Assembly (NCBI RefSeq): GCF_900111025.1
Contig: NZ_FOFN01000001.1
Span: forward strand, 992,001 to 1,056,000
DNA from: Hyunsoonleella jejuensis
Lineage (GTDB): Bacteria; Bacteroidota; Bacteroidia; Flavobacteriales; Flavobacteriaceae
Direction: 5' to 3'
DNA length: 64,000 nt
How positions within the stretch are numbered: the first letter of the stretch is position 1; every line of letters begins with the position of its first letter. Below, in pieces: positions 32,569-64,000 of the stretch. A program made the position numbers and the translations under genes. The notes beneath the pieces are model-generated. The model searched no databases, was not told the DNA's origin, and worked only from the letters and a program-made list of their open reading frames with translations.

Positions 32569-32598
32569 CATTCACAAAGTTCAAACACTTATTGAAAT

Positions 32599-32731
32599 GT
32601 TATCAAGAAAGGTGGAGGGAATAGACCCTTTGAAGCCTTAGCAACCTCCCGACCTTTTTCGGGGAAGGTGCTAAATTCTACTTAAACCCCGATGCAGGCA
32701 TCGTTGGTTTGGATAGATAACCAAAAAAATT
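32599..32731 (+). ncRNA. SAM-I riboswitch (S-box) upstream of metY
   Basis: The stretch has the S-box core. P1 is GTTATC (32599-32604) with GATAAC (32726-32731). After P1 come AAGAAAGGTGGAGGGA, GACCC, TGAAGCC and GCAACC, and the 3' core reads AAGGTGCTAAATTC. SAM binding would lower expression of the downstream methionine genes. Downstream hairpins (AAATTACA/TGTAATTT at 32737-32756 and CACTTT/AAAGTG at 32779-32793) may form the expression platform, but there is no classical terminator, so the mechanism (termination or initiation) is open. Confidence 0.93.
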
Positions 32732-32837
32732 ACATCGCTGTAATTTCAGAATTCTTAATAACATTTTTCTATGAAGTACACTTTTTTAAAGTGCATTTGA
32801 ATTTTTGGTTTTAATATTAACTAGAAAAATTAGAAAA

Positions 32838-51327: not shown

Positions 51328-51352
51328 TTCGCTAGTTCATTAACGTGTTAGT

Positions 51353-51457
51353 GTTATCAAGAAAGGTAGAGGGATTAGACCCAAAGACACCTTGGCAACC
51401 CTTTAAATTGTAAAGAAGGTGCTACGTTCTACTCCTATTATTTTGGAGACAGATAAC
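51353..51457 (+). ncRNA. SAM-I riboswitch (S-box) upstream of the methionine synthase genes
   Basis: P1 is GTTATC (51353-51358) with GATAAC (51452-51457). The core AAGAAAGGTAGAGGGATTAG, GACCC, AAGACACC and TTGGCAACCC is followed by AAGGTGCTACGTTC on the 3' side, all as in the S-box consensus. It should turn down metH and metF when SAM is abundant. It is shorter than the riboswitch at 32599, with a reduced P3/P4 region. No terminator hairpin is obvious between it and the first gene. Confidence 0.93.
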
Positions 51458-51510
51458 GAATAGTATTTTTTACTTTTCTTGATGATATTGCATTTAAAGT
51501 GGTATCAAAA

Positions 51511-52536: not shown

Positions 52537-55209
52537 ATGAAAGTAAAGCAAACAAAATATATGAAGTTGTCTGGTTTAGAACCGTTGGTTTTAAACGAGA
52601 ACAGCAATTTTATAAATGTAGGTGAACGTACCAATGTTGCAGGTTCTAGAAAGTTTCTTCGGTTAATAAAAGAGGAAAAGTTTGATGAGGCACTGGACAT
52701 TGCACGTCATCAGGTTGATGGTGGTGCACAAATTATCGACATAAATATGGACGATGGTTTAATAGATGGTAAAGAAGCCATGGTGCGCTTTTTAAACTTA
52801 ATTGCTGCAGAGCCTGATATTTGTCGCGTACCTATTATGATTGACTCTTCCAAATGGGAGATTATTGAAGCCGGACTTCAGGTGGTTCAGGGAAAATGTG
52901 TGGTGAATTCTATTTCACTCAAAGAAGGTGAAGAAAAATTTATTTGGGAAGCGACTCAAATTAAGCGATACGGTGCGGCGGTGATTGTAATGGCATTTGA
53001 TGAAGTAGGGCAAGCCGATAACTACGAAAGGCGTATAGAAATTGCGAAAAGATCTTATGATATTTTGGTAAATAAAGTTGGTTTTCCTTCAGAAGATATC
53101 ATATTCGATTTAAATATATTTCCTGTGGCCACTGGAATGGAAGAACACCGAAGAAACGCCATAGATTTTATTGAAGCCACACGTTGGGTTCGCGAAAATC
53201 TAGAAAATGTTTCTGTAAGTGGAGGTGTAAGTAACGTGTCCTTTTCGTTTAGAGGAAATAACGGTGTTCGCGAAGCAATGCATTCTGTGTTTTTATACCA
53301 CGCCATTCAAAATGGTATGAACATGGGAATTGTAAATCCTACGATGTTGGAGGTTTACGATGATATTCCAAAGGATTTATTGGAGCATGTAGAAGATGTT
53401 ATTTTAGATAGACGTGATGACGCTACCGAACGATTACTGGATTTTGCTGAAACTGTAAAAGGCTCTAAGGCTGAAAAAACGGTTGATTTAACTTGGCGAG
53501 AGGGCTCAATTCAAGATAGAATAACACATGCTTTGGTAAAGGGGATTGACGCCTTTATTATTGAGGATGTTGAGCAAGCGCGACAAGAAGCATCAAAACC
53601 AATTGAAGTCATTGAAGGGCATTTAATGATTGGAATGAATGTGGTTGGTGATTTATTTGGTGCTGGAAAAATGTTTTTGCCGCAAGTAGTGAAATCTGCC
53701 CGTGTGATGAAAAAGGCAGTGGCGTATTTAAATCCGTTTATTGAAGCCGAAAAAACGGATAAATCAGAACCAGTGGGAAAGATTTTAATGGCTACCGTAA
53801 AAGGCGATGTGCATGATATTGGTAAAAATATTGTGAGTGTGGTATTGGCTTGTAACAATTACGAAATTGTAGATTTAGGTGTTATGGTGCCGCCAGAAAA
53901 AATCATTGAAACGGCTATTAGTGAGCGTGTAGATGCTATTGGATTATCTGGCTTAATTACACCTTCGTTAGATGAGATGGTGTATTTGGCTAAGGAGATG
54001 CAAAATAAAAACTTTGAAGTGCCATTGCTAATTGGTGGTGCAACAACATCAAAAGCACATACAGCAGTTAAAATTGATACACAATATGAAAATGCGGTGG
54101 TACATGTAAATGATGCGTCTAGAGCAGTAACTGTTGTTGGTGACTTGTTAAATAAGAAAACGGCACACGAGTATACAGCGAAGTTGAAGAAGGATTATGA
54201 CGAATTCCGAACGAAATTTTTAAAGCGTGGTAAAGAGAAGTCTTATATTTCGATTGAAGAAGCGCGAAAAAGAAAATATAAAATAGATTGGAATACTTCT
54301 GAAATCGTGAAACCAAAGGAATTGGGCGTTCAAATTTTGAAGCAATTAAGCTTAAAGGAGTTATTGCCTTTTATAGATTGGAGTCCGTTTTTTAGAAGCT
54401 GGGATTTACACGGTAAATATCCAGATATTTTAAAAGATGAAATGGTTGGAGAACAAGCTACGCAGTTGTTTGAAGATGCCCAAGAGATGATACAGCATAT
54501 TGTTGCAAAACAATTATTGAAGCCTAAAGCGGTATTTGGATTGTTTGAAGCAAATGCTATAAATGAAGATGATATTTCGGTACAGAAAAAGGGTAAAGAA
54601 ATTGCAGTTTTTAGAACATTACGTCAGCAATTAAAAAAGCGAGAAGGTATTCCTAATTTAGCTTTAGCAGATTTTATTGCACCAAATAATACTGGTAAGA
54701 CCGATTACATGGGTGCATTTTGTGTGGGTATTTTTGGAGCTCAAGAACTTGCAGATGCTTATAAGGCTAAAGATGATGATTATAACGCCATTATGGCTCA
54801 GGCGATAGCCGATAGATTCGCTGAAGCTTTTTCAGAATATTTGCATAAACAAATAAGAACAAAACATTGGGGTTATGCGGCTGATGAGGATTTGACAAAC
54901 CAAGATTTAATAAAAGAAAGTTATAAAGGTATTCGTCCTGCACCGGGGTATCCTGCGTGTCCAGATCATTTAGAAAAGGAAACTATTTGGGACTTATTGG
55001 AGGTTGAAAAACGTATAGGTGTAACCTTAACCGAAAGTTTAGCGATGTGGCCAGCAGCTGCGGTTTCAGGCTATTATTTTGCAAACCCCGAAGCTAAATA
55101 TTTTGGGTTAGGTAAAATAACAGACGACCAATTAACCGATTATGCGGAGCGAAAAGGCATAACCAAGGAGAAAGCTAGAAAATGGTTACACCCTAATTTA
55201 GCAGAATAG
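52537..55209 (+). CDS. metH: methionine synthase C-terminal module: folate-, cobalamin- and SAM-binding domains
   Basis: The 890-residue protein starts with the pterin-binding barrel ([32 protein letters not shown]). It continues with the cobalamin cap and the Rossmann domain ([15 protein letters not shown], carrying the cobalt-binding His, then [20 protein letters not shown]). It ends with the reactivation domain that binds SAM ([32 protein letters not shown]). With the preceding gene it makes a complete B12-dependent enzyme, which transfers the methyl group of methyltetrahydrofolate to homocysteine. The methyl donor comes from metF downstream. Confidence 0.96.
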
Positions 55210-55294
55210 CCCGCGTTAGCGATTGTAGAGGCATCCTTTTTTGAGGCACGATAAAAAGATATAACGGAAAGCGCGACCCGATAGGGGAACGCCC
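55208..55294. repeat. CCCGCGTTAGGG-type dispersed repeat
   Basis: AGCCCGCGTTAGCGATTG, GGAAAGCGCGACCCGATAG and GGGAACGCC match parts of the repeat at 34303-34399 (ACCCGCGTTAGGGATTG, GGAAAGCCCGACCTGATAG, GGGTAACGCC) in the same orientation. It fills most of the 97-base gap between metH and metF. Confidence 0.75.
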
Positions 55295-62057: not shown

Positions 62058-62951
62058 TTAATCGTTAGTTAAATCTCTAAACAAACTTTCTAAACTGGCA
62101 TTCTTTTGGTTTAGCTGTAAAATCTTCAATTGGTTGTCATGTGCAAAATCAAATACGTAAGAACGCATGTCTTCTGAAGTTTTAAAGGTGATTTCATATA
62201 CAAAATCATAGGTGTTTATTACCTTTTCAACTTTAGGAAGTTTTAGTAAGAAAGCGTCTTCCACGCGATAATCAAATTCTACAACTACAGTTTGCTCTTT
62301 TTCGTTACGGAGGTCTTTAAGTTTTTTGTCAGCCACAATTTCACCTTTATTGATAATGATAACCCTGTCGCACATGGCTTCTACTTCTTGCATAATATGT
62401 GTAGAAAGAAAGACGGTTTTTGTTTTTCCGATGGATTTAATCAAATTTCTGATATCAATCAATTGGTTTGGGTCTAATCCCGTAGTGGGTTCATCAAGAA
62501 TTAAAACCTCTGGGTCGTGCAATAAAGCGGTTGCTAAACCTACGCGTTGCCGGTACCCTTTAGAGAGTTGTCCTATTTTTTTGCGAATTTCTGGAGTTAA
62601 CCCCGTCATTTCAATAACGTCTGCTATTCTCGATTTGTCTACTTTATAAATATTAGCATTAAAAGCCAAATACTCTTTAATGTACATGTCTAAATACAGT
62701 GGATTGTGCTCCGGAAGGTATCCTACACTTTTTTGAATGTCTTGAGGCGTGTCAATATCAAAACTATTAACTTTGGTAGTACCGGATGAAGGTTGAATAT
62801 AAGTGGTTAAAATCTTCATCATTGTGGATTTACCGGCGCCATTGGGTCCTAAAAAGCCCACAATTTCAGGTTGTGCTACATTAAATGATATGTTGTTTAA
62901 GGCTTTTTGGTTGCCGTATAGTTTTGATACACCGTTTACTTCAATAGACAT
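62058..62951 (-). CDS. gldA: gliding motility ABC transporter ATP-binding protein GldA
   Basis: From the ATG at 62951 the protein has 297 residues, starting MSIEVNGVSKLYGNQKAL. Walker A is GPNGAGKST, the signature LSKGYRQRVGLA, and Walker B VLILDEPTTGLDP; the switch His is in STHIMQE. The C-terminal part (about 75 residues) is the extension seen in GldA-like ATPases. GldA works with the membrane proteins GldF and GldG in Bacteroidota gliding; these are not in the window. A start seven codons earlier is possible but lies before the conserved N-terminus. Confidence 0.88.
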   Translation of the reverse strand: MSIEVNGVSKLYGNQKALNNISFNVAQPEIVGFLGPNGAGKSTMMKILTTYIQPSSGTTKVNSFDIDTPQDIQKSVGYLPEHNPLYLDMYIKEYLAFNANIYKVDKSRIADVIEMTGLTPEIRKKIGQLSKGYRQRVGLATALLHDPEVLILDEPTTGLDPNQLIDIRNLIKSIGKTKTVFLSTHIMQEVEAMCDRVIIINKGEIVADKKLKDLRNEKEQTVVVEFDYRVEDAFLLKLPKVEKVINTYDFVYEITFKTSEDMRSYVFDFAHDNQLKILQLNQKNASLESLFRDLTND

Positions 62952-62969
62952 ATTGCGGAATTGTTTTGT

Positions 62970-62977
62970 CAAAAATA
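62970..62977 (-). promoter_or_regulatory. candidate -7 element of gldA
   Basis: On the minus strand this reads TATTTTTG, an exact TAnnTTTG, 18 bases upstream of the GldA ATG. No TTTG is seen at the -33 position, so it is weakly supported. Confidence 0.35.
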
Positions 62978-63057
62978 ATGATTCTGTAATGTAATTTGAA
63001 TTTTGTTATAAATTCTTTAAAACTTTTCAGAAATGAAGAAAAAAGGTTTTATAGTAT

Positions 63058-63087
63058 TTTGATTTCTTGAAATATTAGTTACTTTAG
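63058..63087 (+). promoter_or_regulatory. candidate promoter of the pheA leader
   Basis: TTTG (63058-63061) and TACTTTAG (63080-63087, one mismatch to TAnnTTTG) are separated by 18 bases. Transcription would start near 63094, giving a very short untranslated region before the leader peptide. Confidence 0.5.
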
Positions 63088-63098
63088 CCGACGTAATT

Positions 63099-63179
63099 AT
63101 GAGAACAACAACGTATTATACATATTTTAACTTTTTTTATTTCTTTTTTAGCAAAGAAATCGAGACGTTGTGTGTATAA
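63099..63179 (+). CDS. pheA leader peptide rich in Tyr and Phe codons
   Basis: The ATG at 63099 opens a 26-codon frame ending in TAA at 63177-63179. Residues 1-9 are MRTTTYYTY, and the peptide goes on with FNFFYFFFSKEI and then ETLCV. Ten of the thirteen codons from residue 5 to 17 encode Tyr or Phe. Such a run is expected only in a leader peptide that senses charged tRNA-Phe and tRNA-Tyr. It lies just before a terminator hairpin and the pheA gene. The peptide itself has no enzymatic role; its translation rate is the signal. Confidence 0.9.
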   Translation: MRTTTYYTYFNFFYFFFSKEIETLCV

Positions 63180-63233
63180 TTAAGTAAGAATATATATGAA
63201 TGCAAGTCTCGATGAAAATCGAGACTTTTTTTT
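63159..63233 (+). terminator. attenuator: antiterminator/terminator hairpins of pheA
   Basis: AGTCTCGAT (63205-63213), GAAA loop and ATCGAGACT (63218-63226) form a 9-bp terminator stem followed by a run of eight T (63226-63233). The same 8-mer ATCGAGAC also occurs earlier, at 63159-63166 within the leader frame, and can pair with GTCTCGAT instead. A ribosome stalled at the aromatic codons (63114-63149) would leave 63159-63166 free, so the antiterminator forms. One reaching the stop at 63177 would cover it, so the terminator forms. Confidence 0.88.
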
Positions 63234-64000
63234 ATGATTAATACAGTAGCCATACAAGGAATAAGAGGTAGTTTTCACCACATAGTGTCACAGGAGTTTT
63301 TTAACAAACCTGTTGATATAATTGAGTGCATGACTTTTGATAGGGTAGTAAACGCCCTAATTAACCAAGAATGTGATGCTGCTATAATGGCTTTAGAGAA
63401 TTCTATTGCGGGTTCTATAATTCCTAATTATGCATTAATCGATGATTATCATTTACATATTGTAGGTGAACATTATTTAGATATTCAGCATAATTTAATG
63501 GCATTGCCAAATCAAAGAATTGAAGACATAAAAGAAGTGTATTCGCACCCAATGGCATTATTGCAATGTAAGGACTTTTTTAAGGATTATCCGCATATCA
63601 AATTAGTTGAAGATAAAGATACTGCTGAGGTTGCAGAACGTATTCAAAAGCATAATTTAAAGCACGTAGGAGCTATTGCTAGTGTTTTGGCTGCTGATAT
63701 TTTTGAGCTTGATGTTTTGGCACATAGTATTCAAACTATAAAGCATAACGAAACGCGTTTTGCTGTAGTAAAGCGTACAAATTCTGAAGTACCGCAACAT
63801 GAAATTAATAAAGCTTCCATTAAGTTTGAAGCAGACCATAAGCGCGGGAGTTTAGCAACAATTTTAAATGTGATGAGTGATTGTAAGTTGAATTTAACAA
63901 AAATTCAATCGTTGCCGATCATAAAAACGCCGTGGAAATATGCATTTTTTGTCGACGTTACTTTTGAGGCTTACGAAGATTTTTCGAAGGCAAAATCGAT
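63234..64000 (+). CDS. pheA: prephenate dehydratase (3' end outside window)
   Basis: The enzyme converts prephenate to phenylpyruvate for phenylalanine synthesis. The visible 255 residues begin MINTVAIQGIRGSFHHIVSQ. They have the catalytic-domain blocks NQECDAAIMALENSIAGSI, YSHPMALLQCKDF and the Thr-Arg-Phe motif NETRFAVV, then the start of the ACT domain (ADHKRGSLATILNVMSD, LTKIQSLPI), the site of Phe feedback. There is no chorismate mutase domain in the visible part. The ATG at 63234 follows directly after the terminator T-run, so attenuation controls it tightly. Other aromatic genes are expected downstream. Confidence 0.95.
   Translation, partial: MINTVAIQGIRGSFHHIVSQEFFNKPVDIIECMTFDRVVNALINQECDAAIMALENSIAGSIIPNYALIDDYHLHIVGEHYLDIQHNLMALPNQRIEDIKEVYSHPMALLQCKDFFKDYPHIKLVEDKDTAEVAERIQKHNLKHVGAIASVLAADIFELDVLAHSIQTIKHNETRFAVVKRTNSEVPQHEINKASIKFEADHKRGSLATILNVMSDCKLNLTKIQSLPIIKTPWKYAFFVDVTFEAYEDFSKAKS

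Follow-up and report, generated by a model that had tools for sequence, protein, structure and literature searches.

The pheA gene of Hyunsoonleella jejuensis appears to be preceded by a ribosome-mediated transcription attenuator that would control a pheA-aminotransferase-tyrA-DAHP synthase/chorismate mutase operon and answer to a shortage of any charged aromatic tRNA, a reading to which we assign a probability of about 0.92. The first gene of this operon, pheA (prephenate dehydratase, PF00800), lies on the + strand from 63234 to 64000 and continues beyond the window, i.e., the whole stretch of 64,000 nucleotides analysed here. The downstream genes were read in locus L031, where pheA is followed by a class I/II aminotransferase (PF00155), a prephenate dehydrogenase (tyrA; NF006307 at 382 bits, cut-off 295), and a DAHP synthase/chorismate mutase (PF00793 and PF01817); the first, second and fourth genes reach the Pfam cut-offs and miss the NCBIfam equivalog cut-offs. 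A tblastn search with the window proteins on 20 regions of 5.5-11 kb, own region included, found all three partners beside pheA in 12 regions, whereas the aminotransferase alone was missing in three (L039, L044, and L045), tyrA alone in one (L047), and both of them in two (L037 and L046), and pheA stood alone in the last two (L033 and L048).

The leader ORF (MRTTTYYTYFNFFYFFFSKEIETLCV, 63099-63179 of the + strand, with its ATG at 63099 and TAA at 63177-63179) has 26 codons, and its codons 6-17 (63114-63149) hold six Phe and four Tyr codons, that is, ten codons for amino acids made by the operon in a run of twelve. The sequence-only reading had given this frame and its ten aromatic codons correctly, but had spread them over thirteen codons instead of twelve consecutive ones. 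Behind the run, ATCGAGAC occurs twice, at 63159-63166 and 63218-63225, and the GTCTCGAT complementary to both copies occurs at 63206-63213, exactly as that reading had placed them in proposing that the two copies compete for one partner. The first of them, copy A, coincides with leader codons 21-23 and is the putative 5′ strand of the antiterminator according to the sequence, the pairing statistics and the masked folding described below. The sequence, the terminator scan and the pairing statistics all point to copy B (AAGTCTCGAT, 63204-63213, + strand), which contains GTCTCGAT, as the shared partner of either copy A, in the antiterminator, or copy C (ATCGAGACTT, 63218-63227, + strand), in the terminator. 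Copy C, delimited by the terminator scan and the pairing statistics, forms the 3′ arm of this terminator and contains the second ATCGAGAC. As A and C both complement B, the predicted antiterminator would exclude the terminator.

The predicted intrinsic terminator, located between the leader and the first gene, ends in a tract of eight T (63226-63233, + strand) that abuts the pheA ATG. It was the single site returned by the terminator scan (shuffle mean 0.2), with a loop of 4 and 10 pairs (AAGTCTCGAT/ATCGAGACTT), a count that takes in two T of the T tract and falls to 8 pairs without them; the eight T and their position had been described correctly before, unlike the hairpin, which had been given 9 bp. 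All the parts of a classical attenuator claimed earlier are indeed present, together with a helix that had been overlooked. Region 1 (ATTATACATA, 63115-63124, + strand), within the Tyr codons of the control run, is predicted by pairing statistics and RNA folding to pair with region 2 (TGTGTATAAT, 63171-63180, + strand), recognised from the pairing statistics, which overlaps the leader stop codon; copy A therefore sits in the loop of this putative protector helix 1:2. The RNA from 63085 to 63233 folds at -32.2 kcal/mol (z -3.2), and only 2 of 200 shuffles folded as well. Among 10,000 dinucleotide shuffles of 63039-63236, an ORF with at least six aromatic codons in 14 appeared in 949 and one with at least ten in none, while the combination of ORF and terminator was found in four and that of ORF, terminator and pairing copy in none.

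The neighbouring upstream gene (62058-62972) lies on the opposite strand; therefore, the terminator on the + strand is not the 3′ end of this gene and can stop only transcription begun just upstream. By comparison with the consensus TAnnTTTG, a Bacteroidota-type promoter is predicted on the + strand at 63058-63087, formed by TTTG (63058-63061), 18 nt and TACTTTAG (63080-63087). With the spacing of 4-5 nt to the transcription start that accompanies this consensus in Bacteroidota (PMC6847099), transcription is expected to start at around 63092-63093, 6-7 nt upstream of the leader ATG. Of the 159 complete leaders defined below, 107 have a TAHHTT[TA]G element in the 60 nt that precede their ATG, compared to 8.5% of shuffles. 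A sigma-70-type scan returned three sites against 3.0 in shuffles and is thus uninformative.

From these elements, we infer actual termination, ribosome stalling and a response to starvation in the following way. A ribosome would start on the leader right behind the RNA polymerase. With plentiful charged tRNA-Phe and tRNA-Tyr, it would pass the aromatic codons to the stop and cover copy A (and region 2), so that B would pair with C and transcription would end in the T tract just before pheA. If charged tRNA-Phe or tRNA-Tyr were short, the ribosome would stall on one of codons 6-17, preventing helix 1:2 and leaving copy A free; A would then pair with B while C is still to be made, the terminator could not form, and the operon would be transcribed.

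The spacing of the leader is consistent with this scheme. Measured from the first base of the final aromatic codon, copy A begins after 12-15 nt in 119 of the 159 leaders, roughly where a ribosome stalled at that codon would have its front edge. We folded the RNA ending before copy C with a ribosome mask whose front edge lay 15 nt beyond the first base of the P site. The probability of the A:B pairing was 0.94-0.99 as long as one of codons 2-16 occupied the A site, and then 0.85 at Phe17, 0.03 at Ser18, and 0.00 at the stop codon. In this computation, a stall at the control codons frees the antiterminator strand and arrival at the stop masks it, and the earlier proposal that the spacing suits ribosome masking of the first copy is upheld by the modelled switch between Phe17 and Ser18. 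With front edges from 12 to 18 nt, the last codon leaving copy A free varied from 16 to 18, and a coverage of up to 12 nt beyond the stop codon, near this modelled range, has been described (PMC4833913). In the absence of a ribosome, helix 1:2 forms first (0.83-0.98 with the RNA end at 63180-63210) and is displaced at equilibrium by A:B once B emerges (0.81-0.85); therefore, kinetics decide the fate of untranslated RNA. Taken as a whole, the RNA that stops short of C is no more stable than its shuffles (z -0.47), and 57 of 200 of these folded as well. For the full-length RNA at equilibrium, the terminator was preferred at every ribosome position tried, and antitermination must consequently be kinetic once C is present, as is likewise the case in classical attenuators.

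The leader recurs in many families of Bacteroidota. We collected pheA upstream regions from three sets: 60 genomes, own included (46 with a pheA match, 45 used); 296 genomes from the class, of which 89, the own genome included, had a match and 87 of the remaining 88 entered the set; and 80 named loci, which are the best 80 of 586 confirmed stretches. Together, these gave 212 regions, reduced to 201 non-redundant ones, window included. A leader was considered complete if it combined an ORF with at least six aromatic codons in 14, a terminator behind this ORF, and a copy able to pair with the 5′ arm of that terminator at a score of at least 13. By this definition, leader, terminator and competing copy were found in 159 of the 201 regions (161 with a helix cut-off of 11), distributed as 39/45, 51/86, and 69/70 in the three sets, the third drawn from the best 80 of 586. 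The corresponding rates in shuffles (20 each, 4,020 in all) were 0.001, 0.001, and 0.000. In the class set, at least one complete case was present in 17 of 27 families, and no complete leader was found in the eight genomes of family f27. Therefore, the comparison with relatives that had been suggested as a check of the leader frame and the alternative pairing turned out in their favour, with the helices also covarying, as described below. In the own genome, with 150 of 6,369 candidates scored, the covariance model R1 gave one strong match, the pheA leader itself (121 bits, the next at 45.5), and 21 weaker ones at 45.5 bits or less that may be due to chance.

The 42 regions that failed the complete test are of several kinds. 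In L061, L063, and L065, another open frame ends 8-11 nt before the pheA match, and in L028 the aromatic ORF, MNRLENTFNSFYFIYDR, is shorter and misses the threshold. A single further miss, covered by L017 and L032 of the same genome, does carry a complete leader, but 646 nt before the pheA match, and several hundred bases with repeated GGCGGGATC-type hairpins lie between the two. No leader was found within 1,740 nt in L033, where pheA stands alone, or in L039. A tandem arrangement was observed in L047, from the same order as the window genome: 330 nt before its pheA match, two aromatic leaders, MNNLVSTFRFFGFFFFRKEGAMS followed by MNQNTQQNFSFFGFFFFKWKSEAVD, are arranged serially with two terminators, the first of these attenuators having a weaker copy A (score 12.5). 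Outside the class, we considered 20 genomes, one or two per family, taken from 247 genomes of the phylum. Four of them (L240, L245, L248, and L249) carry ORF and terminator, and these are precisely the four with a Bacteroidia-type PheA (>220 bits); the remaining 16 lack the combination, L239 having an aromatic ORF alone. The copy in L245 is of 4 bases only and would miss the score of 13, and L240 shows an odd spacing (21). A pheA of the Bacteroidia type seems to bring this switch along in genomes beyond the class as well, and a horizontal transfer of PheA plus leader to these four genomes is possible.

Covariation was assessed in alignment A2, with 47 leaders (the window plus 46 of the 69 complete named loci, themselves from the best 80 of 586 confirmed stretches, thinned at 93% similarity). 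In the terminator B:C, 98.5% of the cells are paired (20-55% in slid controls), and in the antiterminator A:B 77.9% (23-40% slid), percentages that lean upwards as the 47 sequences were selected for these two helices. For B:C, both-side changes occur in 6 of 10 pairs, and no shuffle was as high on any of five measures. For A:B, 17 cells show both-side changes compared to 3.9 in shuffles (0/500 as high), while two of the five measures were not above shuffles (both-side-change pairs 36/500, pair types 205/500). In addition, one of the eight pairs of A:B is missing from 41 of the 47 sequences; the full 8-mer is therefore limited to the near kin of the window, and the shared core is shorter. Helix 1:2, which was not a selection criterion, has 80.2% of its cells paired (22-60% slid) and 37 cells with both-side changes compared to 15.6 shuffled (0/500); on two of the five measures, it does not clearly exceed the shuffles (245/500 and 26/500). 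The strings matched as copy A take 75 spellings in the 159 leaders, length differences counted, ranging from CGAGAC to AGGATTGTG to GCCGGGACT, and the A, B and C copies change together between clades. In a swap test, the own A-B helices had a mean score of 18.6, which fell to 13.2 when the B arm was replaced by a sampled one of another type. As 48% of these foreign arms nevertheless reached 13, the score is a weak filter by itself.

Unlike enteric pheL, the run mixes Tyr and Phe codons, as the sequence-only reading had remarked, and this mixture is expected because the operon, whose later genes lay beyond what that reading could see, makes Phe, Tyr and their common precursor. In the 14-codon runs of the 159 leaders, we counted 782 Phe, 510 Tyr, and 74 Trp codons, with a Trp codon in 74 leaders, and both Phe codons (TTT 553, TTC 245) and both Tyr codons (TAT 437, TAC 120) are used. 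Aromatic codons make up 61% in frame, a value raised by selecting for aromatic ORFs, compared to 17% and 24% in the other two frames, while stops occur in 0 of the 159 stretches in frame and in 24 and 138 in the other two. Judged by its codon content, the leader frame is selected as protein code. The expectation that Tyr codons vanish where tyrA is not beside pheA was contradicted by L037 and L046, which keep them though both tyrA and the aminotransferase are absent from the neighbourhood of pheA. Since a stall at any codon of the run would leave copy A free, the leader could function as an OR gate for aromatic amino acids, and starvation for any amino acid of the run should antiterminate. Whether this amounts to an ancient OR-gate attenuator that the Bacteroidia aromatic operon has throughout the class, reading a shortage of Phe and Tyr and, in roughly half of the leaders examined, of Trp, with a 5′ UTR predicted at only about 6-7 nt here, no Shine-Dalgarno site, and the last aromatic codon placed one ribosome front edge before the antiterminator strand, is in our opinion an evenly balanced proposition.

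Other explanations of these elements must be considered. The B:C hairpin could act mainly on translation, blocking initiation at the pheA ATG until A:B opens it, and indeed the T tract touches the ATG in the window and the stem ends 5-10 nt from the aligned gene start in many close relatives. In many others, however, the terminator is 20-235 nt away from the gene and the stem and T run are still kept, and a T run serves termination and not occlusion, although it was part of our detection rule; we thus consider this explanation improbable. A nascent-peptide arrest, of which TnaC is an example, would have the peptide itself stall the ribosome on sensing free Phe or Tyr instead of starved codons. 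Within the family, conservation of the peptide is recognisable (e.g., FYFFFSKRNETLYV), but across families only the aromatic content is kept, the order and identity of F, Y and W vary, the peptide tail tracks the changing copy A, and the synonymous codons of both Phe and Tyr are in use, which makes such an arrest rather less probable still.

It is scarcely credible that an ordinary terminator after a small gene and an unrelated Phe/Tyr-rich ORF meet here in T-rich DNA. Such DNA does yield ORFs with at least six aromatic codons in 14 in 10-19% of the shuffles of the three sets, whereas the combination of ORF, terminator and pairing copy appears in about 0.1% or fewer, and the conservation, the three-way covariation and the narrow spacing all disfavour coincidence. 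A T-box, a protein-bound RNA or another RNA switch would agree with a structured 5′ element of z -3.2; nevertheless, the translated frame is conserved, and Rfam returned no family at gathering score, T-box included, over 63099-63233 and tRNA only in 14 related loci, so that we attach almost no weight to this possibility. Ribosome-mediated attenuation of transcription remains the reading that we favour.

The kind of system is well known. The enteric pheL/pheA attenuator consists of a leader with Phe codons before pheA, alternative antiterminator and terminator structures, and a T tract, all of which the leader of the window has in common with it; the Rfam model of this system (Phe_leader, RF01859) gives 23.1 bits in the window (E 0.11), below its gathering score of 55. 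The run of the window differs by the addition of Tyr (and Trp in many relatives), and the operon by its tyrA and DAHP synthase/chorismate mutase. Several amino acids are also sensed by one leader in the ilvGMEDA and thr leaders of E. coli, which respond to branched-chain amino acids or Thr/Ile instead of aromatic ones. A further difference from the enteric system concerns the host phylum, described as lacking Shine-Dalgarno sites (PMC6847099). The Leu/phe leader of Lactococcus lactis (RF01743) and the pheA motif of Actinobacteria are likewise tied to Phe supply or pheA, in other phyla (PMC2864571). Candidate upstream ORFs with Phe and Tyr have been proposed for shikimate genes among the five genomes of one study (PMC6429828), resembling the leader of the window in combining both amino acids before aromatic genes. 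In Bacteroides thetaiotaomicron, small ORFs reminiscent of leader peptides have been noted, without pheA (PMC7366714).

The place is partly known. In Flavobacterium psychrophilum, a structured 5′ element of pheA conserved in other Flavobacteriaceae and listed with no Rfam hit, as well as clues of leader-peptide attenuation upstream of amino-acid operons, have been reported (PMC9723704). That element concerns the same gene and family as the window, and the section describing it gives no pheA peptide, pairing or mechanism. Therefore, the earlier remark that such leaders are little described in Bacteroidota is too strong with regard to attenuation clues and the element itself, and stands for the peptide, pairing and mechanism within that section. 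Among the papers listed by full-text searches, no other one on a Bacteroidota pheA leader was found, although Lopatovskaya et al. (2010) may cover the phylum. The present analysis contributes the scheme of competing pairings and its ribosome ruler, the mixture of aromatic codons in the run and the distribution of the leader across the class, and thus a predicted mechanism with exact coordinates for an element whose description in that section came without one (PMC9723704). Classical coupled attenuation is likely at work, as far as sequence comparison can tell, in a large phylum without Shine-Dalgarno sites; if so, the leading ribosome in Bacteroidota must closely follow the RNA polymerase. The dozens of natural variants of the antiterminator copy, at a near-constant distance from the final aromatic codon, make the idea of a ribosome ruler directly testable.

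Other RNA elements were observed in the same genome. A match to the Flavo-1 RNA, whose function is described as not clear (PMC9723704), is located at 55204-55282 of the window (50.2 bits). Two SAM riboswitches are present at 32597-32723 (69.9 bits) and 51351-51459 (85.7 bits), before ORFs at 32805 and 51499 whose translations look like O-acetylhomoserine sulfhydrylase and the N-terminal part of methionine synthase, respectively. Upstream of hisG (L232, G000:C4:322500-325500), a leader ORF with four His in ten codons (MNITHIHHHFFICSQAK) is followed by a terminator (AAACCCGTTTGA/TCAAGCGGGTTT), likely a his attenuator by its sequence. Upstream of trpE (L233, G000:C7:437000-441000), a leader ORF with three consecutive Trp codons (MNKKLNNTWWWCFSKLTFVK) is also followed by a terminator (AAAGGCTTGTC/GACAAGCCTTT), which suggests a likely trp attenuator, and the pheA leader appears to be one of a set together with these His and Trp leaders.
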